Below are positions 3,910 through 63,696 of a stretch of 64,000 bases of DNA, piece by piece (within the stretch, counting starts at the first letter, position 1; each line of letters opens with the position of its first letter). Both the position numbers and the translations under genes were made by a program. Below the pieces are notes generated by a model. That model was not told the origin of the DNA, did no database searches, and saw nothing but the letters and a program-made list of their open reading frames with translations. The stretch covers positions 1 to 64,000 of IMG/VR virus record IMGVR_UViG_3300028559_000025; one strand, given 5' to 3'. The DNA is from a virus.

Positions 3910-4626
3910 ATGGCTACAGAGATATATAAAACAAAAAATATTTATTTATTTGACGGTACAGAGGTAGAGGCTATGCCGTTAAAAATTAAATATTTACGAG
4001 AATTTATGGATGCTTTTAAGCATATAAAAGAAACTAAGAATGACGATGAGGCAATGCGGGTTTTATTAGAGTGTACAAGAATTGCAATGAAACAATATTA
4101 TCCAAAGATATCTTCTAGTATAGAAGATTTAGAAGATAATATAGACATGCCAACTGTACACGAAATACTAGACATTGCTGGAAATATTAAAATAGGTGGT
4201 GATGAAGAATCTGATGTTAAAGAGCAGGCACAAAAAGGTGATCCAGGTCCATCATGGGAAGAGTTTGATTTAGCAAAGCTAGAATCAGAGGTATTTTTAC
4301 TGGGTATATGGAAAGACTACAAAGAGTTAGAAGCATCTTTATCTTTATCAGAAATAATGGCAATAATATCAAGTAAGAGAGAATTAGATTATCAAGAGAA
4401 AAAGTTCTTTGCAGCTATTCAAGGGGTAGATTTAGATGAAGCATCTGGGTCTGATCGTGGACAAAAAGAATGGGAAGATATGAAGGCTAGAATATTTAGT
4501 AATGGAGCAACAAGTGATAGTAACGATGTCTTAGCACTACAGGGACAGAATGCTAAAAAAGCAGGGTTTGGAATTGGATATGGCTTAGATTACAACGATG
4601 AAAGAGACCCAAATCTTTTAAAATAA
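3910..4626 (+). CDS. Tail assembly chaperone, long form (G+T type in one frame)
   Basis: This 238-residue protein has two parts. Residues 1-100 are clearly similar to the short gene at 5253 (both have a DGTE motif, PLKI, then R-K/E-F-M near the N-terminus, and a shared LEDNIDxPTVxEI stretch). Residues about 115-180 (LLGIWKDYKELEASLS, then REldYxEKKFFAAIQG) match the T-type extension that siphoviruses usually reach by ribosomal frameshift. Here the extension is in frame, so no shift is needed. The C-terminal 50 residues are polar and Gly/Asn-rich. There is no Shine-Dalgarno; the start is supported by N-terminal similarity to the short paralogue. Confidence 0.75.
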   Translation: MATEIYKTKNIYLFDGTEVEAMPLKIKYLREFMDAFKHIKETKNDDEAMRVLLECTRIAMKQYYPKISSSIEDLEDNIDMPTVHEILDIAGNIKIGGDEESDVKEQAQKGDPGPSWEEFDLAKLESEVFLLGIWKDYKELEASLSLSEIMAIISSKRELDYQEKKFFAAIQGVDLDEASGSDRGQKEWEDMKARIFSNGATSDSNDVLALQGQNAKKAGFGIGYGLDYNDERDPNLLK

Positions 4627-4667: not shown

Positions 4668-5210
4668 ATGAAAACATGTTCTTTTGATAGTTGCACAAAT
4701 AAATCAATATCGCTTGGGTATTGTGATAAGCACTATCGTAGATTTAAAAAATATGGAAGTGCTGATAAAGTACATACATTTATCCCCAAGGTATGCTATA
4801 TAGATAACTGTAATAAGCAGTCAAGATCAAAAGGTTTATGTGAGTTACATTATAGGAGGCTAATAAAGACTGGAACCACAGAATACGTAAAGGTAACAAA
4901 ATCATGTTCAGTTATAGGATGTGAGAGAAAACACGTAGCAAAGAGATTGTGTGGAATGCACTATGAAATGAAAACTCAAAAAATATCTATAGATGACAAC
5001 GCTATAAAAATTATTAATAATCATAGTGGTTTCTGTGATATTTGTGGCACTGATTCACCAGGGTTTGGACGTAAAAATTTTTGTATAGACCACAACCACT
5101 CCACTGGGTCTGTAAGAGGAATGCTTTGTCAAAAATGCAATATAGGTCTTGGTAATTTTAATGATGACCCAGAACTTCTAAAAAATGCAATAAACTACCT
5201 TAAAAACTAA
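4668..5210 (+). CDS. Endonuclease VII-like HNH nuclease with three zinc-finger repeats
   Basis: This 180-residue protein has three N-terminal zinc modules of the form C-x4-C ... GxCxxHYRR (about residues 4-25, 43-65 and 79-98). They are followed by a recombination endonuclease VII-type domain (about 122-175) with CDICG, then the FCIDHNHSTGSVRGMLCQKC core that is diagnostic for that fold. Such genes behave as free-standing homing or junction-cleaving nucleases. It has its own leaderless promoter and lies between two tail-chaperone paralogues, a position suggesting insertion into the chaperone locus. Confidence 0.85.
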   Translation: MKTCSFDSCTNKSISLGYCDKHYRRFKKYGSADKVHTFIPKVCYIDNCNKQSRSKGLCELHYRRLIKTGTTEYVKVTKSCSVIGCERKHVAKRLCGMHYEMKTQKISIDDNAIKIINNHSGFCDICGTDSPGFGRKNFCIDHNHSTGSVRGMLCQKCNIGLGNFNDDPELLKNAINYLKN

Positions 5211-19637: not shown

Positions 19638-20180
19638 ATGCCATATGTTAAAATATCAGACCCTAATATTATAGATCTTGCTGCTTGGCACCAAGTTATT
19701 AATGTTATTAATCAACACAGCGATACTCTTTCTGCTATCACAAATAATTTTGGTATTAAAGGAACTGCTGTTACAGACTGGAATGGCGAAACAGAAATTT
19801 ACGAAGAATTTAATTCTGGCTCACAAAAAATACTTTATGGAAAGATTGTGATTGATACTAGAGCAGGTTCTGCCCAAGATTTAAACGTAAATAATTATCG
19901 TATGTTTTATCAAACAATAGATTTTGATAACGCTCCAAGTGGAACAGCTAGCTTTAAAGCAAAACCAGTTATAACAACTTCAATATCCCTTCCTGGCTCA
20001 ACTGTTACATCAGATAGAAACGTTGGTCTTATCTGTACTGTAATTGCAGTAACTCAAACAAGTTTTACGGTTCGTGTTATTAAGGCAAGAGAATTAACTG
20101 CAGAGACAGGCACAACGATTGCTGATCCAAAGCCAATTCAAACTTTTCAAATAAACTGGATTGCTATAGGACCAAAGTAA
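19638..20180 (+). CDS. Minor tail protein with H-type lectin-like C-terminal domain
   Basis: This 180-residue protein has an N-terminal part (about 1-60) that looks like an attachment segment. Residues about 65-178 follow the pattern of H-type lectin domains: a GKIVIDTR strand, [26 protein letters not shown] and a terminal INWIAIG strand. H-type lectins bind GalNAc-like sugars in other organisms, so a glycan-binding role at the tail tip is a reasonable inference. It is coupled to the fibre gene by a TAATG overlap. Confidence 0.6.
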
Positions 20181-23100
20181 TGGCTAAGGTACCACCTAAG
20201 TCTGTTTATAAAAGCCCCAAGTCTGTTGCTAGAAATCAACCCGTAACAATAAGTGTTGATGATCCAAGAGCAGCTTGGGATAAGATTGGACAGACTAGAG
20301 CAAGGTTAGGCTCTGAACTTGAACTTGTTGGATTAGATGACATCCCTTTAATTAGTGGAGGAAAAAGTTTAACAGCATCGGTTGGTCCACCAACATTGGG
20401 TATACCAAAAGATCTAGAAAAATTTGTAAGTCCTCCAAGTAATGGCCAAGAAGCTAAAATTGTATATGGATTTGGTGCTATAGTACCAACAGATATTACT
20501 AATGTTTCAACAGCCTGGTCAGGATCAAGTCTTGTAGTTACATTTGATTGGGACTATGCAGATCCTGCTAATGCAACCGTTACAGAATTTATTTTAGAAA
20601 TAACTTTATCTACAGGCACAGTTCGTCAAACTCCATACGGTTCTTTTCCAGTAAATAGAACACAAACAGGACAAACAACAACACTTACAAAATCTTTAAA
20701 TAGATCTACCCTTGGCGTATTTGGAACAAACATTACAAGTATTTGTGTTTATGCTATTGATGCATTTTATAATACAAGTGGTAAGGTTTGTGATGCAACA
20801 GTTCCTGCATACGTGGTTAACCTACCAGTACCAGTTATTACAGTTACTTCAGCAATGAGTGGATATAGCGTAGCTTGGACAATTCCAACATCTGTTCAAG
20901 ATCCAGATGAGGTGTTTGACGCTATTGATATTTATGAATATGAGTCTAGTGCTTCTACAGAACCAACAGATGTCACTTATTCAAGGGTATACTTTGATCA
21001 AGTTTCACCAGCAAATATTATTACAGTTAATAGTAATGATAGATGGGTAAAGGCAAGATTTTCTTCAGATGGAGGAACATACACAGCATTTTCTGCTGCA
21101 CAAAAAGTAACACCAACATCTCCAGTTACAGTAGACACCACTGGACCAGCCGCTCCAACTGGATCAGTAACTGGTGGATTAGAAACTTCTGGAACGATAG
21201 GCTTTAATGCTTTCTTAAATATATCTTGGACTGCAGTATCAGATACTACTTTACGAGGGTATAGAATTAGGTTTAGACCAGTAACTACTCCAGCATCTGC
21301 TTACTCTTATGTAGACTCCCCAGGAAATGGAACAACTTTTAGAATTACAGGTCTTGCTTCAGGCACAAGCTATGAAGTTCAAATTGCATCATATGATGAG
21401 TTTAATAACACTTCTTCATCATATCAAACATTAACTAATAGCCCAGTGTCAACTGCTGGATCTCCCTTTATAGGAACAAATGTTTCTACAACTGGATACT
21501 TTGAAGCTGGAGTTTCTGGAACAGATACAGGAGTTTTTAGATTTGGCTACGGGGTAGCTACTGGTAAAAGAGGCTTATCATTTAATACAAACAATTATTG
21601 GTATATAGATTCATCTCAGTCAGCGTCTTTAAAGGTTGGTGGAGCAGACAACTATGTTACTTGGGACGGCTCATCTCTTATAGTAGCTGGAGACCTACAG
21701 GCTAAAAAAGGATCGTTTAGCGGAAACGTAAACATTGCAAGTGGTGCATCTCTATATAGTGGTACTTTAACTGGAAATACCGTTACTGCTTCTGCTAATA
21801 CTGGTGGTTCATTGTCTAGTGCAGGATACATATTAAATGAAGATGGAATTACATTTTCTAATGGGCTATCAGGAAATGATTTAAGACAAACTACTATAGT
21901 TGGAGCAAGTGGATTACTCACAACAAATTCAGCAAATATAGGTGGATGGATTATAACTCCAGGCTCAATAACAAAAACTGCAAGGGGAGAAGGAAAGATT
22001 TCTTTAGACTCAGCAAATGGATACATCTATGTAACTAGAGACGATGTAGAGACAATTACTGCTGGTATTAATAGTCCAAAAGATGATAACGATAATGTTT
22101 TTTGGTCTGGCGGAAGTAATCCAACAGATGAAACAAGCCCATTTAGAGTTAGACTAAATGGAGATCTATTTGCAAGCAATGCAGAAATTAAAGGTGTTAT
22201 AAGGGCTACTAGTGGTGGTTTTGGAACATTTGATCCATCTACTAACCTTATTACAAACGGTTGGACTATTAGTACCAATGGAATAATTGCAAAGGGTGAG
22301 GGTAGCATTAAAATTGGAAACTATTCAATACAAACTCTTGAGCCAGACGGTTCTGATTTTTCAATAAAATATATTGCAGGTAATGAAAACCTAATAAGAA
22401 CAGATTCTTTTGCTAGCAATGTTGATGATCCAAAAAGAATATTTATAGGTGATAGTACAAGACAGGTTGAAGTTGCTAAATCAGCAAGCCTATCTGGAGC
22501 TGGTTCAATAGTAACTTTGCCAACAAGCAATGCTACAGCTCTAAGTGCTTATCGCTCAGGTGGTCTAAGAAATATATTTACTGTTTCAGAGTCCGCAAGA
22601 AGTGGTTCAACTGGAGACGGAGTAGATTTTAGTGGAAATGTGCTAGATTATCCATCAGCAATTAAGGGTGACATGCTGATTGTTTATAAAACTACAGGAA
22701 CCAATCCAGACCCTAAATGGAGAGAGGTAGTCGCAACATACGTAGCCATTACTGGTACAGCCCCTACTCCAACGCCAACACCTACTCCAACGCCAACGCC
22801 AACTCCAACGCCAACACCTACGCCAACACCTACACCAACTCCAACCCCTACTCCTACGCCAACACCTACGCCAACACCTACGCCAACACCTACTCCAGTA
22901 CAAAGCACCTATTACTTTGTTTGTGACGATACACAATGTGGTTCAGTACTTGCCTCATCCGCTCTTGAAGCAGTTGCACTTGGAAACGCATATTGTCAAG
23001 ATAATGCAGATCCAGGACTTACAAATAATGTAGCTGGAGGAGTATCACTAACACCAATTCCTGGTTGTGCTCCAACTCCAACACCTACTCCAACACCTAC

Positions 23101-23446
23101 GCCAACACCTACACCAACACCTACACCAACACCTACGCCAACTCCAACGCCAACACCTACGCCAACACCAGTAACAGAAACAAGTAGAACAGTTGGAACC
23201 TGTATATCATATGTTTATTGCCCAGAAGGTGGAGAGAGACTAGATACTGTTTATTATTCAAATGGAACTAGTAGTGAGCAATATGTTTGCTGTTCTTATA
23301 CAGCAACAGCAACTCCAACGCCAACTCCTGAACCAACACCAACCCCAACCCCTACACCAACTGAATGCCAAACATGCGGCATCTGCTGCCTGTACGGACC
23401 ATGTGAATATGGCTGTGGCCCATGCGACTTTTGGTGTGATGACTAG
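20180..23446 (+). CDS. Tail fibre with fibronectin-type domains, Pro-Thr stalks and Cys-rich tip
   Basis: This is a 1088-residue adsorption protein. The N-terminal 100 residues probably attach to the tail. Residues about 110-420 hold two or three fibronectin type III-like domains (GYRIRFRP, then [19 protein letters not shown]). A beta-rich region (about 430-830) resembles fibre shafts. Residues 862-906, about 965-997 and about 1045-1061 are (Pro-Thr)n stalks, separated by two Cys-containing modules of about 45-58 residues. The protein ends in a very Cys-rich tail ([16 protein letters not shown]). Pro-Thr stalks are classic substrates for O-glycosylation or proline hydroxylation, and a prolyl-hydroxylase-like gene and a GlcNAc transferase follow within 1.3 kb. 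Confidence 0.85.
22763..22897 (+). repeat. Pro-Thr codon repeat tract 1
   Basis: There are 45 codons alternating Pro and Thr. Third positions vary (CCA/CCT/CCC and ACA/ACT/ACC/ACG), so the tract is kept at protein level rather than being a recent perfect DNA repeat. Confidence 0.95.
23072..23170 (+). repeat. Pro-Thr codon repeat tract 2
   Basis: There are 33 codons alternating Pro and Thr with mixed synonymous codons, lying between two Cys-containing modules of the fibre. Confidence 0.95.
23312..23362 (+). repeat. Pro-Thr codon repeat tract 3
   Basis: This shorter Thr-Pro run is interrupted by a Pro-Glu step and leads into the Cys-rich C-terminus of the fibre. Confidence 0.85.
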
Positions 23447-53581: not shown

Positions 53582-53869
53582 ATGAAGCAACACTTATGGA
53601 AAGACGAAAGTGCTTGCTTTGGTACAGATACCAATTTATTCTTTGAAAGATATGAAGATGATGAGCTTATTAGACCAATAATAGACAACCTGTGTCAATC
53701 GTGCCCAGTGCAAAAAATATGTTTTGCTAACGGTGTATCTGGCAAAGAGTGGGGTGTATGGGGTGGTATATACTTAGAGAATGGTGAAATATCAAGAGAG
53801 TTTAGTAAGCATAGAACAAAAGAAAAATGGGGTGAGATGTGGAAATCTCTAACAATGGAGAAGATGTAA
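53582..53869 (+). CDS. WhiB-family iron-sulfur transcription regulator
   Basis: In this 95-residue protein, C12, C38-x2-C41 and C47 (CPVQKIC) form the [4Fe-4S] set, followed by the GVWGG turn (58-62) and a basic tail. This is the diagnostic WhiB layout. WhiB proteins occur only in Actinobacteria and their phages and act with the primary sigma factor, so it probably redirects host transcription. An AAGGAG site precedes the ATG. Confidence 0.95.
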   Translation: MKQHLWKDESACFGTDTNLFFERYEDDELIRPIIDNLCQSCPVQKICFANGVSGKEWGVWGGIYLENGEISREFSKHRTKEKWGEMWKSLTMEKM

Positions 53870-60092: not shown

Positions 60093-60101
60093 CCAGAATA
60101 G

Positions 60102-60173
60102 CACCCCTGATTGGATTTGAACCAACGACCTGCGGATTAGAAGTCCGTCGCTCTTCCGCTGAGCTACAGGGGT
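60102..60173 (-). tRNA. tRNA-Arg (anticodon TCT)
   Basis: Acceptor ACCCCTG/CAGGGGT, anticodon stem CGGA/TCCG with loop CTTCTAA, and T stem GTTGG with loop TTCAAAT. It reads AGA/AGG, the AT-rich Arg codons abundant in these genes. Confidence 0.9.
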
Positions 60174-60174
60174 A

Positions 60175-60251
60175 TGGTAGAGCAGGTGAGAATTGAACTC
60201 ACGATCTTCAGTATATAAGACTGGTGCCTTTACCAACTTGGCTACTGGTGT
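60175..60251 (-). tRNA. tRNA-Ile (anticodon TAT), with mismatched acceptor stem
   Basis: Anticodon stem CAGT/ACTG with loop CTTATAT gives anticodon TAT, which reads ATA. T stem GTGAG/CTCAC with loop TTCAATT, discriminator A and CCA encoded. The acceptor ACACCAG against CTGCTCT leaves two C-C mismatches, so it may be decaying or edited. Confidence 0.75.
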
Positions 60252-60255
60252 TTAG

Positions 60256-60330
60256 TAGGGCAAGTGGGACTTGAACCCACACCTTCCAATTTATGAGATT
60301 GAAGCTACTAACCAATTAAGCTATTGCCCC
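60256..60330 (-). tRNA. tRNA-Met (anticodon CAT)
   Basis: Acceptor GGGGCAA/TTGCCCT (one wobble), D stem GCT/AGC, anticodon loop CTCATAA, T stem TGGG/CCCA with loop TTCAAGT. CCA is not encoded. A CAT anticodon could also be a lysidine-modified Ile tRNA; an elongator Met tRNA is the simpler call. Confidence 0.85.
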
Positions 60331-60337
60331 AATGACG

Positions 60338-60436
60338 TTATTCTTTATTCTGATTAACTCCAACAGTCATTACTAGGTATGAAACTAGATACCCAGAAAA
60401 AAATGATACTGCAGTTAAAACAATTAGCTTAAGCAT
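60338..60436 (-). CDS. Single-span membrane micro-protein, 32 aa (copy A)
   Basis: A 32-residue frame, mostly one transmembrane helix (LIVLTAVSFFSGYLVSYLVMT) with a short polar tail ending VNQNKE. It overlaps the upstream gene by 8 nt. A very similar micro-protein is encoded at 62389-62478 (shared FF-GY...Y-VMT...V-QN), which supports it being real. Confidence 0.65.
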   Translation of the reverse strand: MLKLIVLTAVSFFSGYLVSYLVMTVGVNQNKE

Positions 60437-60659
60437 TTGCCACTCCTTCCTTTTCATCTTTCTTCCAATGTATATAAGACTTAATATAAACTGCTGCATA
60501 TGCTATTGCCATAGCTATGAAGCCATACTGATCTGTAGCAAGTGCATAAGCAATCCATAAGCACTCATTAACACAAAGTATTAGCCAACCCCAAATAGTC
60601 TTACGACCTACCAAAAATATACCAGTTACACCAATTGCTGCTAATATCCAAGACCACAT
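60429..60659 (-). CDS. Membrane protein, 76 aa
   Basis: This 76-residue protein has two or three hydrophobic segments (ILAAIGVTGIFLVG, WGWLILCVNECLWIAYAL, FIAMAIAYAAVYI) with a basic C-terminus. It resembles small actinophage membrane proteins distantly like PnuC cores. The function is unknown. Confidence 0.7.
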   Translation of the reverse strand: MWSWILAAIGVTGIFLVGRKTIWGWLILCVNECLWIAYALATDQYGFIAMAIAYAAVYIKSYIHWKKDEKEGVANA

Positions 60660-60791
60660 TTATTTAGTAGCTGGCATGATTTTGTCACATGGACAAATTA
60701 TTGATTCTGCCAAATCGCCTTTTGTTTTAATAGTAATTGTTGTTCCACACTCTTTATCCTCACATACATATGTACGTTTATTCATTGCCAT
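60660..60791 (-). CDS. Small zinc-ribbon protein, 43 aa
   Basis: A 43-residue frame with CEDKEC and CPC pairs, a possible zinc site. It starts within the upstream gene's end (14-nt overlap) and ends directly before the next start. An ATG at 60785 is an alternative. Confidence 0.55.
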   Translation of the reverse strand: MAMNKRTYVCEDKECGTTITIKTKGDLAESIICPCDKIMPATK

Positions 60792-61014
60792 GATGTAACC
60801 TTTCGTTTTGTCCTCTTGCAATTGCAGCACATACCTTAAAAGCTGCCTTTGTCCTACGACTTTTCATAAAGCCTAACCTCTGCCATACTGGAACAGTAGC
60901 CTCAATATCAAGTGCAATCTGTTCCCTAATCTCTTTTACCGTTGTGATGATTAAATCCATCACGTATGCTTTTTGATCATCATCAAGATCTTTAGTCCAC
61001 CCAGTTGTTTCCAT
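60778..61014 (-). CDS. Hypothetical protein, 78 aa
   Basis: This 78-residue helical protein (DLDDDQKAYVMDLIITTVKE, then RTKAAFKVCAAIARG) is the first gene of a four-gene - strand unit. It has a consensus promoter with -35 TTGCAA, a 17-bp spacer and TATGAT, and only 6 nt between the -10 box and ATG. The function is unknown. Confidence 0.7.
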   Translation of the reverse strand: METTGWTKDLDDDQKAYVMDLIITTVKEIREQIALDIEATVPVWQRLGFMKSRRTKAAFKVCAAIARGQNERLHHGNE

Positions 61015-61020
61015 GGATCA

Positions 61021-61049
61021 ATCATATCAGAAAATCAGCGGTATTGCAA
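61021..61049 (-). promoter_or_regulatory. Consensus leaderless-type promoter (- strand)
   Basis: On the - strand: TTGCAA (61049-61044), 17-bp spacer, TGa-TATGAT (61026-61021), 6-nt gap, ATG at 61014. It lies back to back with a + strand promoter at 61056. Confidence 0.75.
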
Positions 61050-61055
61050 CTATGG

Positions 61056-61061
61056 TATGAT
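61056..61061 (+). promoter_or_regulatory. Leaderless-type promoter of the 54-residue + strand gene
   Basis: TGg-TATGAT with a 6-nt gap to ATG 61068 and no Shine-Dalgarno. It diverges from the - strand promoter at 61021-61049. Confidence 0.5.
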
Positions 61062-61067
61062 TAGTAT

Positions 61068-61232
61068 ATGTATGAATGCGATCATCACCTAATACCTATA
61101 GTATATGGCTACATGCATGGAGACGTAATTGATAAAATAAACAATTATGAAATAATATACGGTGGAATAAAGAGATCTAGTGATTCAGCAGACTGGTTCT
61201 GCACTAGATGTCTTGAAGATGTTTATATTTAA
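61068..61232 (+). CDS. Small zinc-site protein, 54 aa
   Basis: This 54-residue frame has MYECDHHLIP at the N-terminus and WFCTRCLEDV at the C-terminus, a plausible Cys/His zinc site. It is a lone + strand gene among - strand genes, with its own divergent leaderless-type promoter. The stop lies 5 nt before the end of the - strand SGNH-like gene. Confidence 0.65.
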   Translation: MYECDHHLIPIVYGYMHGDVIDKINNYEIIYGGIKRSSDSADWFCTRCLEDVYI

Positions 61233-61237
61233 TTAAA

Positions 61238-61903
61238 TTAATCAACTGCTAAAAAACTTAATTTATCTGAAAATAATTTCCAGATCTTTTCCATATGCTC
61301 AGGTTTTAATCCGTCTACTGGATGTGGAGCATCTGTATGTGTCATAGATGGAGTTAGCTCAGGTACACCAAGAGCATCTAGGATATCCTGCTGAGTAATT
61401 ACTATTTCAAATCTCGCTTCTTTTGCATACTTATGTAGTGCAGCTAGAAACTCACGATTCTGATCAATTCTCTGCTCATGCGTGTAGTATGGACTAATTC
61501 CTTCATGCTTTAGCAACATCTCAGTAAATTGAGGTAATGGCTCTATCACTACAACACTAGAATTTATAAAGTTATTATTTATATTGTCAATAAATTTCTT
61601 TACTGTCTCATCTGCATTCTTGTACCTAGGTAAAAATGTTCTAGTGTCTACATATCCAAGCCATAAAACCAAAACTCCATCATCTTTAATAACTGAAAAT
61701 GGTTGTGGCATATGGTTAACAGTTCTAGCAATTTCTACTCCAGAAGACATTTCATCTTCTTCACGCATTTGCTCAACACTAAATCCATGCATTTTCTTAG
61801 CAGCTTTAGACCAAGGAATAAAAACTACATCATGTTTTTCTGGATAATAATGCTCTATTGCTCTAGATAAATGGCAATCACCAATCATATAAATTTTTTT
61901 CAT
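61238..61903 (-). CDS. SGNH/GDSL-like hydrolase with Cys in block I
   Basis: In this 221-residue protein, YMIGDCHLSRA resembles SGNH block I (GDS) but with Cys10 in place of the Ser nucleophile. VLVLWLGYVDTR could supply the block III region, and MTHTDAPHPVDGLKPEHM carries the DxxH Asp-His pair. It is the last gene of a - strand operon with several tiny genes. Family relatives deacetylate glycans or lipids; Cys at the nucleophile position makes activity uncertain. Confidence 0.65.
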   Translation of the reverse strand: MKKIYMIGDCHLSRAIEHYYPEKHDVVFIPWSKAAKKMHGFSVEQMREEDEMSSGVEIARTVNHMPQPFSVIKDDGVLVLWLGYVDTRTFLPRYKNADETVKKFIDNINNNFINSSVVVIEPLPQFTEMLLKHEGISPYYTHEQRIDQNREFLAALHKYAKEARFEIVITQQDILDALGVPELTPSMTHTDAPHPVDGLKPEHMEKIWKLFSDKLSFLAVD

Positions 61904-62085
61904 TACTCAAAATCTACCTGCGTTTCAAACTTTTTAGCCCATTCTGTCATATAGTTATCTTCTCCCCTTGCAATATTAGCAGCAGCAATACGCATACCCA
62001 AAGCATTTGTTACTCCTGGAACAATTGGAATAGCCTCTATCTCTGCTGCAATTTCTATTCTTAGCATCATTTCATCCATACTCAT
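61903..62085 (-). CDS. Small hypothetical protein, 60 aa
   Basis: This 60-residue helical, acidic protein (MLRIEIAAEIEAIPIVPG, then AAANIARGEDNYM) overlaps the SGNH-like gene by one base and lies 1 nt after the next gene. The function is unknown. Confidence 0.65.
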   Translation of the reverse strand: MSMDEMMLRIEIAAEIEAIPIVPGVTNALGMRIAAANIARGEDNYMTEWAKKFETQVDFE

Positions 62086-62086
62086 T

Positions 62087-62329
62087 TTATTCCTCCATGT
62101 TTAATTCGTAATAGGTTCCCCACCAATGATAGGGCTTGTACAAAAAGGTTGACATATATGCGTGGTACCTACAAGCAAGACCAAGATCATCATGATCTCT
62201 ATAATGTAAAAACATATTTAGGTGATAGTGAGCATATTTTTCACAAAAATTACCCATCCATCTAAGTGGAAGTATCCTAGTCTTCTCTATCTTCTTTGAT
62301 CTGCTGAGGAATCCATCGTAATCTTCCAT
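62087..62329 (-). CDS. Aromatic/His-rich hypothetical protein, 80 aa
   Basis: This 80-residue protein is unusually rich in Tyr, His and Trp (KYAHYHLNMFLHYRDHDDLG, then YKPYHWWGTYYELN). No family recognised. It overlaps the upstream micro-gene by 53 nt and is translationally coupled to the next gene. Confidence 0.65.
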   Translation of the reverse strand: MEDYDGFLSRSKKIEKTRILPLRWMGNFCEKYAHYHLNMFLHYRDHDDLGLACRYHAYMSTFLYKPYHWWGTYYELNMEE

Positions 62330-62375
62330 CTACATATACCCTTTCATATCCTAAAGCTTTCCAGTCCATCTTCAT
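62277..62375 (-). CDS. Micro-protein, 32 aa
   Basis: This 32-residue frame (MDWKALGYERVYVDGRLRW) ends inside the next gene. It follows the micro-membrane gene by 13 nt and has no Shine-Dalgarno of its own. It is plausible because of tight packing; evidence is otherwise weak. Confidence 0.45.
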   Translation of the reverse strand: MKMDWKALGYERVYVDGRLRWIPQQIKEDRED

Positions 62376-62388
62376 AATACTTGGCTCT

Positions 62389-62478
62389 TTAATTTTGATC
62401 CACCTTGTATGTCATAACAAAATAGCATGTCACATAGCCAATAAAAAATGCTGTAATAAGAAATAATATGTTTATCAT
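62389..62478 (-). CDS. Single-span membrane micro-protein, 29 aa (copy B)
   Basis: This 29-residue frame is mostly a transmembrane helix (INILFLITAFFIGYVTCYFVMT) with tail KVDQN, a paralogue of copy A at 60338-60436. It has a near-perfect promoter (TTGACT, 17 bp, TATACT) only 7 nt before its ATG, which strongly supports it as the first gene of the operon down to 61238. Confidence 0.75.
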   Translation of the reverse strand: MINILFLITAFFIGYVTCYFVMTYKVDQN

Positions 62479-62485
62479 ATATATC

Positions 62486-62514
62486 AGTATATCACTTACC
62501 AGTAAATAAGTCAA
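62486..62514 (-). promoter_or_regulatory. Consensus leaderless-type promoter (- strand)
   Basis: On the - strand: TTGACT (62514-62509), 17-bp spacer, TGa-TATACT (62491-62486), 7-nt gap, ATG at 62478. It diverges from the promoter of the sulfotransferase gene. Confidence 0.85.
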
Positions 62515-62521
62515 GATAAGG

Positions 62522-62527
62522 TATAAT
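62522..62527 (+). promoter_or_regulatory. Leaderless-type promoter of the sulfotransferase gene
   Basis: TATAAT with a 6-nt gap to ATG 62534 and no Shine-Dalgarno. No clear -35 box. Confidence 0.5.
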
Positions 62528-62533
62528 GAATAT

Positions 62534-63109
62534 ATGAAAAATAATAATTATTTAGATTTTTTATACCATAAAATTCCAGACTTAACAATGCTTACTTATC
62601 CTAGATCTGGCAAACATTGGTTATATTGGAACATATTAACAAATACAGACCTAAAAGTAAACTTTTTTCACGCAATAGGTAAAGAATATTATAAAAATAA
62701 TCTTTGTGTCCCAATAATAACAGTAGTCAGAAGCCCAGAAGAATGCTTAGCTTCTATAAATACAATGGAACAAAATACAAAAATTGATAACAGACTAAAT
62801 GAGTATATAAATCATTATGAATTTATTCTAGAGCATGCAGATTTATTTTTTGCATATGAAGACTTAAAGGAAAAAACTCCACAGATAATAGAAGCTATAT
62901 GTAATAGGTTTGGTGGTACGGTATTAGGGTCAAACCATAACTTTCAAGAATATGAAAGATGGTATAAAGAAACACAGAACCCAATTAAACTTATAACATC
63001 AAAAGAGTCTGTTTTGTATCAAGATGTACTTAAACAAACTAAATCTCTTGATTTATCTAAACACAAAAAATTGTATTTTGCTGCAAAAAGCAAAGCAATC
63101 AATCTTTAA
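62534..63109 (+). CDS. Sulfotransferase-family protein
   Basis: In this 191-residue protein, YPRSGKHW (Y22-W29) matches the 5'-phosphosulfate loop of PAPS-dependent sulfotransferases (YPKSGTTW-type), and VVRSPEECLASI (R66-S67) matches the 3'-phosphate site. The small size is at the lower end of the family. It stands alone on the + strand, convergent with a zinc micro-gene. A glycan or surface substrate is inferred from the glycan genes nearby. Confidence 0.8.
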   Translation: MKNNNYLDFLYHKIPDLTMLTYPRSGKHWLYWNILTNTDLKVNFFHAIGKEYYKNNLCVPIITVVRSPEECLASINTMEQNTKIDNRLNEYINHYEFILEHADLFFAYEDLKEKTPQIIEAICNRFGGTVLGSNHNFQEYERWYKETQNPIKLITSKESVLYQDVLKQTKSLDLSKHKKLYFAAKSKAINL

Positions 63110-63209
63110 TTTTATCTTTAATGCACCATATGTGTTTATCTGACATAGTTTGATGAGTATCCCAGTATTCAATGTTTTCTTTGTCCATACCGCAGGCTTT
63201 ACAGTTCAT
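63099..63209 (-). CDS. Zinc micro-protein, 36 aa
   Basis: This 36-residue frame (NCKACGMDK, then KHIWCIKDK) has a possible Cys/His zinc site. A near-perfect TTGACT-17-TATTAT promoter lies just 6 nt before its ATG. It converges with the sulfotransferase gene (11-nt overlap). Confidence 0.65.
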   Translation of the reverse strand: MNCKACGMDKENIEYWDTHQTMSDKHIWCIKDKIKD

Positions 63210-63215
63210 ACATAC

Positions 63216-63244
63216 ATAATACCTTATTTAGAAAATAAAGTCAA
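63216..63244 (-). promoter_or_regulatory. Consensus leaderless-type promoter (- strand)
   Basis: On the - strand: TTGACT (63244-63239), 17-bp spacer, TATTAT (63221-63216), 6-nt gap, ATG at 63209. Confidence 0.8.
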
Positions 63245-63251
63245 ACATGGA

Positions 63252-63377
63252 TTATGATACAAGGCCCATTGATAGATGATTTAAGCACACATCTGCAACC
63301 ACATATTCGTGGTGATTTACTACAACATCGTAATGTGTTGCATCTTTATCGCAGAAGAAGCACTTATCTTTTTTCAT
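63252..63377 (-). CDS. Zinc-site micro-protein, 41 aa
   Basis: This 41-residue frame has CFFCDKDATHYD near the N-terminus and VCLNHL near the end, a plausible zinc site of the kind repeated in this region. TGa-TACAAT lies 6 nt before its ATG. Confidence 0.65.
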   Translation of the reverse strand: MKKDKCFFCDKDATHYDVVVNHHEYVVADVCLNHLSMGLVS

Positions 63378-63383
63378 ACACTT

Positions 63384-63389
63384 ATTGTA
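63384..63389 (-). promoter_or_regulatory. Leaderless-type extended -10 promoter (- strand)
   Basis: TGa-TACAAT on the - strand with a 6-nt gap to ATG 63377. The -35 region is weak. Confidence 0.55.
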
Positions 63390-63399
63390 TCATGCCAAG

Positions 63400-63591
63400 C
63401 TATAGGCTATAAGTCTTCAAAGCGCCATTTGCTGCAATCTCAGCCTCTTCCTCTGTATGGCAATATCCATATCTTACAACCTTCAACCCATCATATAGGG
63501 TCCACTTCCAAGGGATAGATGGCATGTAGAATCCAACACGTTTTTTTTCTACATACTCCTCAACGACTACTTTCAACATATCTCCAAGCAT
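63400..63591 (-). CDS. Small hypothetical protein, 63 aa
   Basis: This 63-residue protein (VGFYMPSIPWKWTLYDGLK, then CHTEEEAEIAANGAL) overlaps the upstream micro-gene by 32 nt. The C-terminal part resembles a small helical single-domain fold. The function is unknown. Confidence 0.65.
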   Translation of the reverse strand: MLGDMLKVVVEEYVEKKRVGFYMPSIPWKWTLYDGLKVVRYGYCHTEEEAEIAANGALKTYSL

Positions 63592-63661
63592 CGCCTGTTA
63601 ATGGATCAATATGCCATCCAAACTCTTCCTGAAACTTTTCATTTCTTTCAATCATATTCAT
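63560..63661 (-). CDS. Micro-protein, 33 aa
   Basis: This 33-residue acidic frame (RNEKFQEEFGWHIDPLTGDA) is preceded by a near-perfect promoter (TTGACT-17-TACAAT) with only 6 nt to ATG. It ends inside the next gene, which supports co-translation. Confidence 0.65.
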   Translation of the reverse strand: MNMIERNEKFQEEFGWHIDPLTGDAWRYVESSR

Positions 63662-63667
63662 GTATTT

Positions 63668-63696
63668 ATTGTAGCAAATTTGTGGGGATAAGTCAA
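63668..63696 (-). promoter_or_regulatory. Consensus leaderless-type promoter (- strand)
   Basis: On the - strand: TTGACT (63696-63691), 17-bp spacer, TGc-TACAAT (63673-63668), 6-nt gap, ATG at 63661. Confidence 0.85.

Follow-up and report, generated by a model that had tools for sequence, protein, structure and literature searches.

Leaderless genes are common in Actinobacteria, where a TANNNT motif ∼12 bp upstream of the start codon is their signature and where orthologous genes also switch between modes of initiation (Zheng 2011, PMC3160421). Leaderless starts have been mapped in Mycobacterium tuberculosis (Cortes 2013, PMC3898074), and leaderless small proteins are known in mycobacteria (Shell 2015, PMC4633059). 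A leaderless transcript has been predicted for gene 90 of mycobacteriophage Adephagia (PMC11373665). The ESAS/SAS cassettes of cluster K phages, also known from Adephagia (PMC11373665), are SigA-like promoters with 17-18 bp spacing, repeated before actinophage accessory genes; the SAS is a fixed 13-bp sequence extending beyond the RBS, and an inverted repeat lies within the ESAS. In the part of the open-access literature that was covered, no paper was found to describe leaderless starts as systematic among the accessory genes of freshwater actinophages.

The window (the whole stretch of DNA analyzed, 64,000 nt) is part of a viral record of 76,727 bases (76.7 kb) with a GC content of 37%. Streptomyces phages such as Yaboi and Karimac (Stanwilliamsviridae) have terminases that share 53% identity with that of the present virus. 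The replication gene order, read by eye from the ORF list, is that of Yaboi: helicase, primase, single-strand binding protein, DnaE polymerase, MazG, recombinase, exonuclease, RuvC and terminase. Likeness to this family is based on the terminase and gene order comparison, with a whiB-like gene and a shared placement of start codons (see below) as further common features; the present virus is lower in GC. A Ca. Nanopelagicales MAG holds a terminase 65% identical to that of the phage, and 338 cultured phage records, every one named for an actinobacterial host, were matched by the 76-aa PnuC-like gene. Because of the whiB-like gene, the Streptomyces-phage-like core, the MAG terminase match and the PnuC-like matches, the host is judged almost certainly to be an actinobacterium, and probably one of freshwater, low-GC type. 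That the host belongs to a group competent for leaderless translation is indicated indirectly, by whiB, the actinophage core genes and the MAG match. A search of the phage for a Sigma70_r4 domain found none. A 1088-aa tail-region protein (20180-23446, + strand) carries long Thr-Pro (TP)n repeats.

The 5-kb region of interest gave no match to cultured phages with Megablast. The following features are referred to in the text (window coordinates).

53597-53770, + strand: whiB-like gene, Shine-Dalgarno-led
60101-60330, - strand: tRNA-Met(cat), tRNA-Ile(tat) and tRNA-Arg(tct), after the P4 unit
60338-60791, - strand: downstream genes of the P4 unit, encoding 43, 76 (half-length, PnuC-like) and 32 aa
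60778-61014, - strand: 78-aa helical protein, predicted leaderless behind P4
61014-61068: divergent promoter region, TTGCAA-17-TGATATGAT-6-ATG leftward and TGGTATGAT-6-ATG rightward
61049-61021, - strand, to ATG at 61014: promoter P4, TTGCAA-17-TATGAT-6-ATG
61068-61232, + strand: 54-aa Cys protein, predicted leaderless
61238-62375, - strand: downstream genes of the P3 unit, of 32, 80, 60 and 221 aa, overlapping or coupled
62389-62478, - strand: 29-aa gene, predicted leaderless behind P3
62514-62486, - strand, to ATG at 62478: promoter P3, TTGACT-17-TATACT (TGA extended -10)-7-ATG
62534-63109, + strand: 191-aa sulfotransferase-like gene (weak match, Pfam below cut-off), AGGTATAAT-6-ATG
63099-63209, - strand: 36-aa Cys protein (C..C...W[DE]THQTMSD...WC), predicted leaderless behind P2
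63244-63216, - strand, to ATG at 63209: promoter P2, TTGACT-17-TATTAT-6-ATG
63252-63377, - strand: 41-aa Cys/His (CxxC...CxxH) protein, predicted leaderless, TGATACAAT-6-ATG without a -35 box
63400-63591, - strand: 63-aa frame overlapping the end of the 33-aa frame, pN/pS 0.48
63560-63661, - strand: 33-aa predicted leaderless frame (MNMIERNEKFQEEFGWHIDPLTGDAWRYVESSR) behind P1, near-identical copies only
63696-63668, - strand, to ATG at 63661: promoter P1, TTGACT-17-TACAAT (TGC extended -10)-6-ATG

The initial annotation had described P1 to P4 as four - strand promoters with exact 17 bp spacers and 6-7 nt to the ATG, and all four sites read as claimed. It had called them near-consensus, but the -35 box of P4 matches at only 4 of 6 positions. 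The full pattern (-35, 17 bp, -10, 6-7 nt, ATG) was counted 4 times in the region; 2000 second-order Markov shuffles gave a mean of 0.054 (maximum 2), which bears out the view that the spacing is hard to explain by chance; in the whole 76.7-kb record it occurred 5 times against 0.57 expected. The first genes behind P1, P2, P3 and P4 encode 33, 36, 29 and 78 aa. The annotated size range of 29-78 aa therefore stands for the first genes only, since P3 and P4 head polycistronic units: the P3 operon runs 29-32-80-60-221 aa, and the P4 operon runs 78-43-76-32 aa and then into the three tRNAs. The analysis supported the picture of micro-genes set in separate transcription units that each have a promoter. 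At least three further predicted leaderless starts, overlooked by the initial annotation, at 63377 (-), 61068 (+) and 62534 (+), have a weak -35 box or none. By reading, the four sites have no inverted repeat, no Shine-Dalgarno (SD) sequence and nothing in common beyond -35, -10 and ATG, and they thus differ from the ESAS/SAS cassettes.

Bacterial RNA polymerase begins transcription ∼7 nt past the -10 box. An ATG placed 6 nt after the box (d = 6) would therefore receive the first RNA base on its A, and leaderless mRNAs are then expected. Distances were counted in several sets of sequences. In the record itself, 17-spaced promoters had an ATG at d = 6 (10 cases) or d = 7 (5 cases), with ∼1.8 at other distances; extended -10 boxes preceding frames of at least 25 codons gave 9 at d = 6 and ∼1 elsewhere. 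Among related viral contigs (3.3 Mb), extended -10 boxes gave 383 at d = 6 against ∼22, a raw count biased toward the island genes, most loci having been fetched with these genes as queries. Counts were therefore collapsed to protein families, which lessens the query bias and leaves some of it; 132 families were found at d = 6 against ∼20 at each other distance, and families with at least 3 distinct proteins numbered 48 against ∼3. Yaboi, the cultured Streptomyces relative, gave 10 at d = 6 and 5 at d = 7 against ∼2, so that the -10 placement expected of leaderless genes, with transcription predicted to begin at the start codon's first base, was found in the window, its relatives and Yaboi. 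The peak was confined to ATG; GTG and TTG starts gave none. Neither did a 50 kb T4 control, and shuffle controls were flat across distances. Loci around the terminase gene also had no d = 6 peak, and the rule thus belongs to accessory genes and is not genome-wide. In the MAG contigs, which are of the high-GC Nanopelagicales type, the d = 6-7 signal was weak, a point against the leaderless reading; the phage host is probably low-GC. Among 40 relatives of the MAG, TATAAT patterns were counted 18 times at d = 6 against 5 at d = 10, matches too few to weigh, and the TATAAT-like boxes of Adephagia were too few for the distance test. The larger genes at 4668, 24757 and 51473 (+ strand; 180, 309 and 380 aa) start with TGA-TAnnnT-6-ATG, and the leaderless pattern therefore marks inserted full-size genes too.

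The 6-7-nt distance should thus be read as a leaderless mRNA signature, beyond the near-consensus promoter of the initial annotation. In a competing reading the genes are ordinary leadered ones, with true starts further upstream and -10-like boxes that belong to an AT-rich background. The region is indeed AT-rich (genome ∼37% GC), and promoter-like hexamer pairs alone were not enriched in it (22 against 30.8 ± 6.0 in shuffles), but a background of this kind does not account for distances that peak at one base position while the shuffles stay flat. It is also at odds with the distribution of SD sequences, which are missing exactly where a -10 box is present. In seven families, an SD was found at 2/139 starts with a leaderless promoter and at 118 of the 183 starts without one (Fisher p 4e-37; starts from related loci, hence not fully independent). 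Leaderless and SD starts nearly exclude each other, even inside one family, and the lack of an upstream SD expected of leaderless genes was found. All 50 distinct relatives of the 41-aa family and all 28 of the 54-aa family were leaderless by this measure. The 29-, 36- and 78-aa families switch, with a promoter and leaderless start when heading a unit and an SD or stop-start overlap inside an operon. A divergent 53-bp region (below) that keeps its -10 and TTGCA elements while the spacer varies also speaks against leadered starts, and we regard them as very unlikely. The 43-aa and 60-aa genes were not counted as leaderless despite an apparent match, because their box lies inside upstream coding sequence or beside an SD.

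The favored leaderless reading has its closest likeness in the leaderless genes of Actinobacteria (PMC3160421, PMC3898074), with which these starts share the -10 position, the absence of an SD and orthologues that switch modes. They differ in being found in a phage and in accessory genes only. Starts here are ATG alone, whereas mycobacterial leaderless starts include GTG; a clear -35 or a TGN extended -10 is often present here, whereas M. tuberculosis has no -35 consensus and few TGN boxes. The leaderless small proteins of mycobacteria (PMC4633059) are likewise short ORFs, unannotated and beginning with the first base of their transcripts, often at operon heads, but are host genes and sometimes non-conserved, whereas those described here are conserved across hundreds of viral contigs.

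Conservation of the frames had been set as a test by the initial annotation, with its loss beside persisting promoters pointing to small RNAs. When 14 genes from 60.3-63.7 kb were compared by codon with their relatives, the pooled pN/pS was 0.22-0.48 in 13; purifying selection was seen in the 36-, 29- and 78-aa frames (pN/pS 0.26-0.32) and in ten neighbors. Judged by their codon substitutions, 13 of the 14 micro-frames of the island are real, selected proteins. The remaining one, the 33-aa frame that follows P1, had no copies other than near-identical ones. Promoters making small regulatory RNAs, with the short frames incidental, would fit the expected shortness of the transcripts and this one frame without diverged relatives; such a reading is contradicted for the other 13 by their pN/pS and by conserved Cys/His positions. 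The exact d = 6 ATG in 132 protein families would be needless for an RNA, the same frames are SD-led elsewhere, and a search of Rfam gave tRNAs alone above the gathering score. We therefore consider small RNAs extremely improbable. Searched against PHROGs and Pfam, the micro-proteins had no match other than the PnuC-like one (76 aa) and weak or sub-threshold ones; the microprotein families of 29, 32, 36, 41, 54 and 78 aa had none in PHROGs, and that of 78 aa none in any cultured phage record.

The 41-aa protein has an invariant CxxC...CxxH motif, and its predicted structure is a small hairpin of two strands (pLDDT 79.5), for which reasons it is likely to bind zinc; a PDB fold search with the model gave no significant match. 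The 36-aa protein had 290 matches in viral contigs. The 63-aa frame, whose start codon could be internal, has a ∼41% identical paralogue within 1.1 kb, at genome ∼64.4-64.6 kb (locus L082, ∼4380-4620), and a PWKW motif is common to both. Further on, at genome ∼65.5-66.4 kb (L082, 5500-6400), lies a non-coding, repeat-rich stretch with many CAAACCTT, GACATTACGA and AAGGTTTG words, a possible replication origin or regulator-binding array. The 29-aa product looks like a single-pass membrane microprotein; its gene had 237 matches in viral contigs, mostly SD-led. The 29-aa gene has a paralogue in the 32-aa gene (60338-60436), which is SD-led inside the P4 operon. The tRNA trio lies between this operon and a glycosyltransferase/FkbM-like methyltransferase cluster.

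The 78-aa protein was modelled as helical (pLDDT 88), with no significant match in a PDB fold search; its family was leaderless in 24 relatives and SD-led in 11. The start codons of the 54-aa (+) and 78-aa (-) genes are 53 bp apart, and exactly 53 bp was found in 29 distinct pairs, with conservation of TTGCA and of the two -10 boxes. With footprints of standard size, two polymerases would overlap by ∼27 bp and could scarcely be bound at the same time, which makes a switch plausible in which the two leaderless promoters are mutually exclusive and one microprotein is made at a time per template. The fixed spacing may instead reflect compactness and common descent alone, no regulator site was identified in the pair, and a few relatives have 35-36 or 55 bp; we offer the switch as a tentative and rather doubtful addition to the main reading. 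A second back-to-back pair is formed by the 29-aa gene and the 191-aa gene, which is probably leaderless, with 55 bp between their start codons; it falls outside the strict filter because the 191-aa promoter has neither a -35 nor a TGN element. The 191-aa gene sits among the micro-genes. Its relatives in loci L087 and L097 (68-70% identical) likewise start back to back with micro-genes, and the partner in L087 is a different gene.

Taken with the actinophage affiliation, these sequence data make it very probable that the island consists of accessory transcription units of an actinobacterial phage, with sigma-A-type promoters, leaderless ATG starts and selected microproteins. The host housekeeping RNA polymerase would read each unit from such a promoter, the -10 box of which stops 6 (7) nt short of the ATG. 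The A of the ATG would be the first base transcribed, and ribosomes would initiate on the leaderless mRNA, with later genes of the unit served by SD sites or stop-start coupling. A stretch of ∼35 bp before the gene holds both promoter and start site, and the micro-genes may therefore act as small, self-contained cassettes open to loss, gain and relocation; those taken up into an operon would acquire an SD site instead. As to function, we infer that the microproteins (Cys/His zinc-binding-like, single-pass membrane and helical) are most likely host-takeover or regulatory factors. Leaderless initiation itself is a known mode, used here by modular phage accessory genes for previously undescribed microproteins.

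Conserved microprotein families of 29, 32, 36, 41, 54 and 78 aa are hereby defined, and the viruses concerned occur in many freshwater metagenome contigs. The rule TANNNT + 6 nt + ATG, without an SD, finds real 29-80-aa phage genes that ordinary gene callers can miss. It is possible, though we think it unlikely on balance, that leaderless initiation sets apart one class of freshwater actinophage genes, the mobile accessory micro-genes with their minimal ∼35 bp promoter-start cassette, from core genes that are SD-led. Were this so, the phage could translate takeover peptides when SD-dependent initiation is down, and if the split between accessory and core genes holds, a role of leaderless translation in separating takeover from virion proteins becomes testable.
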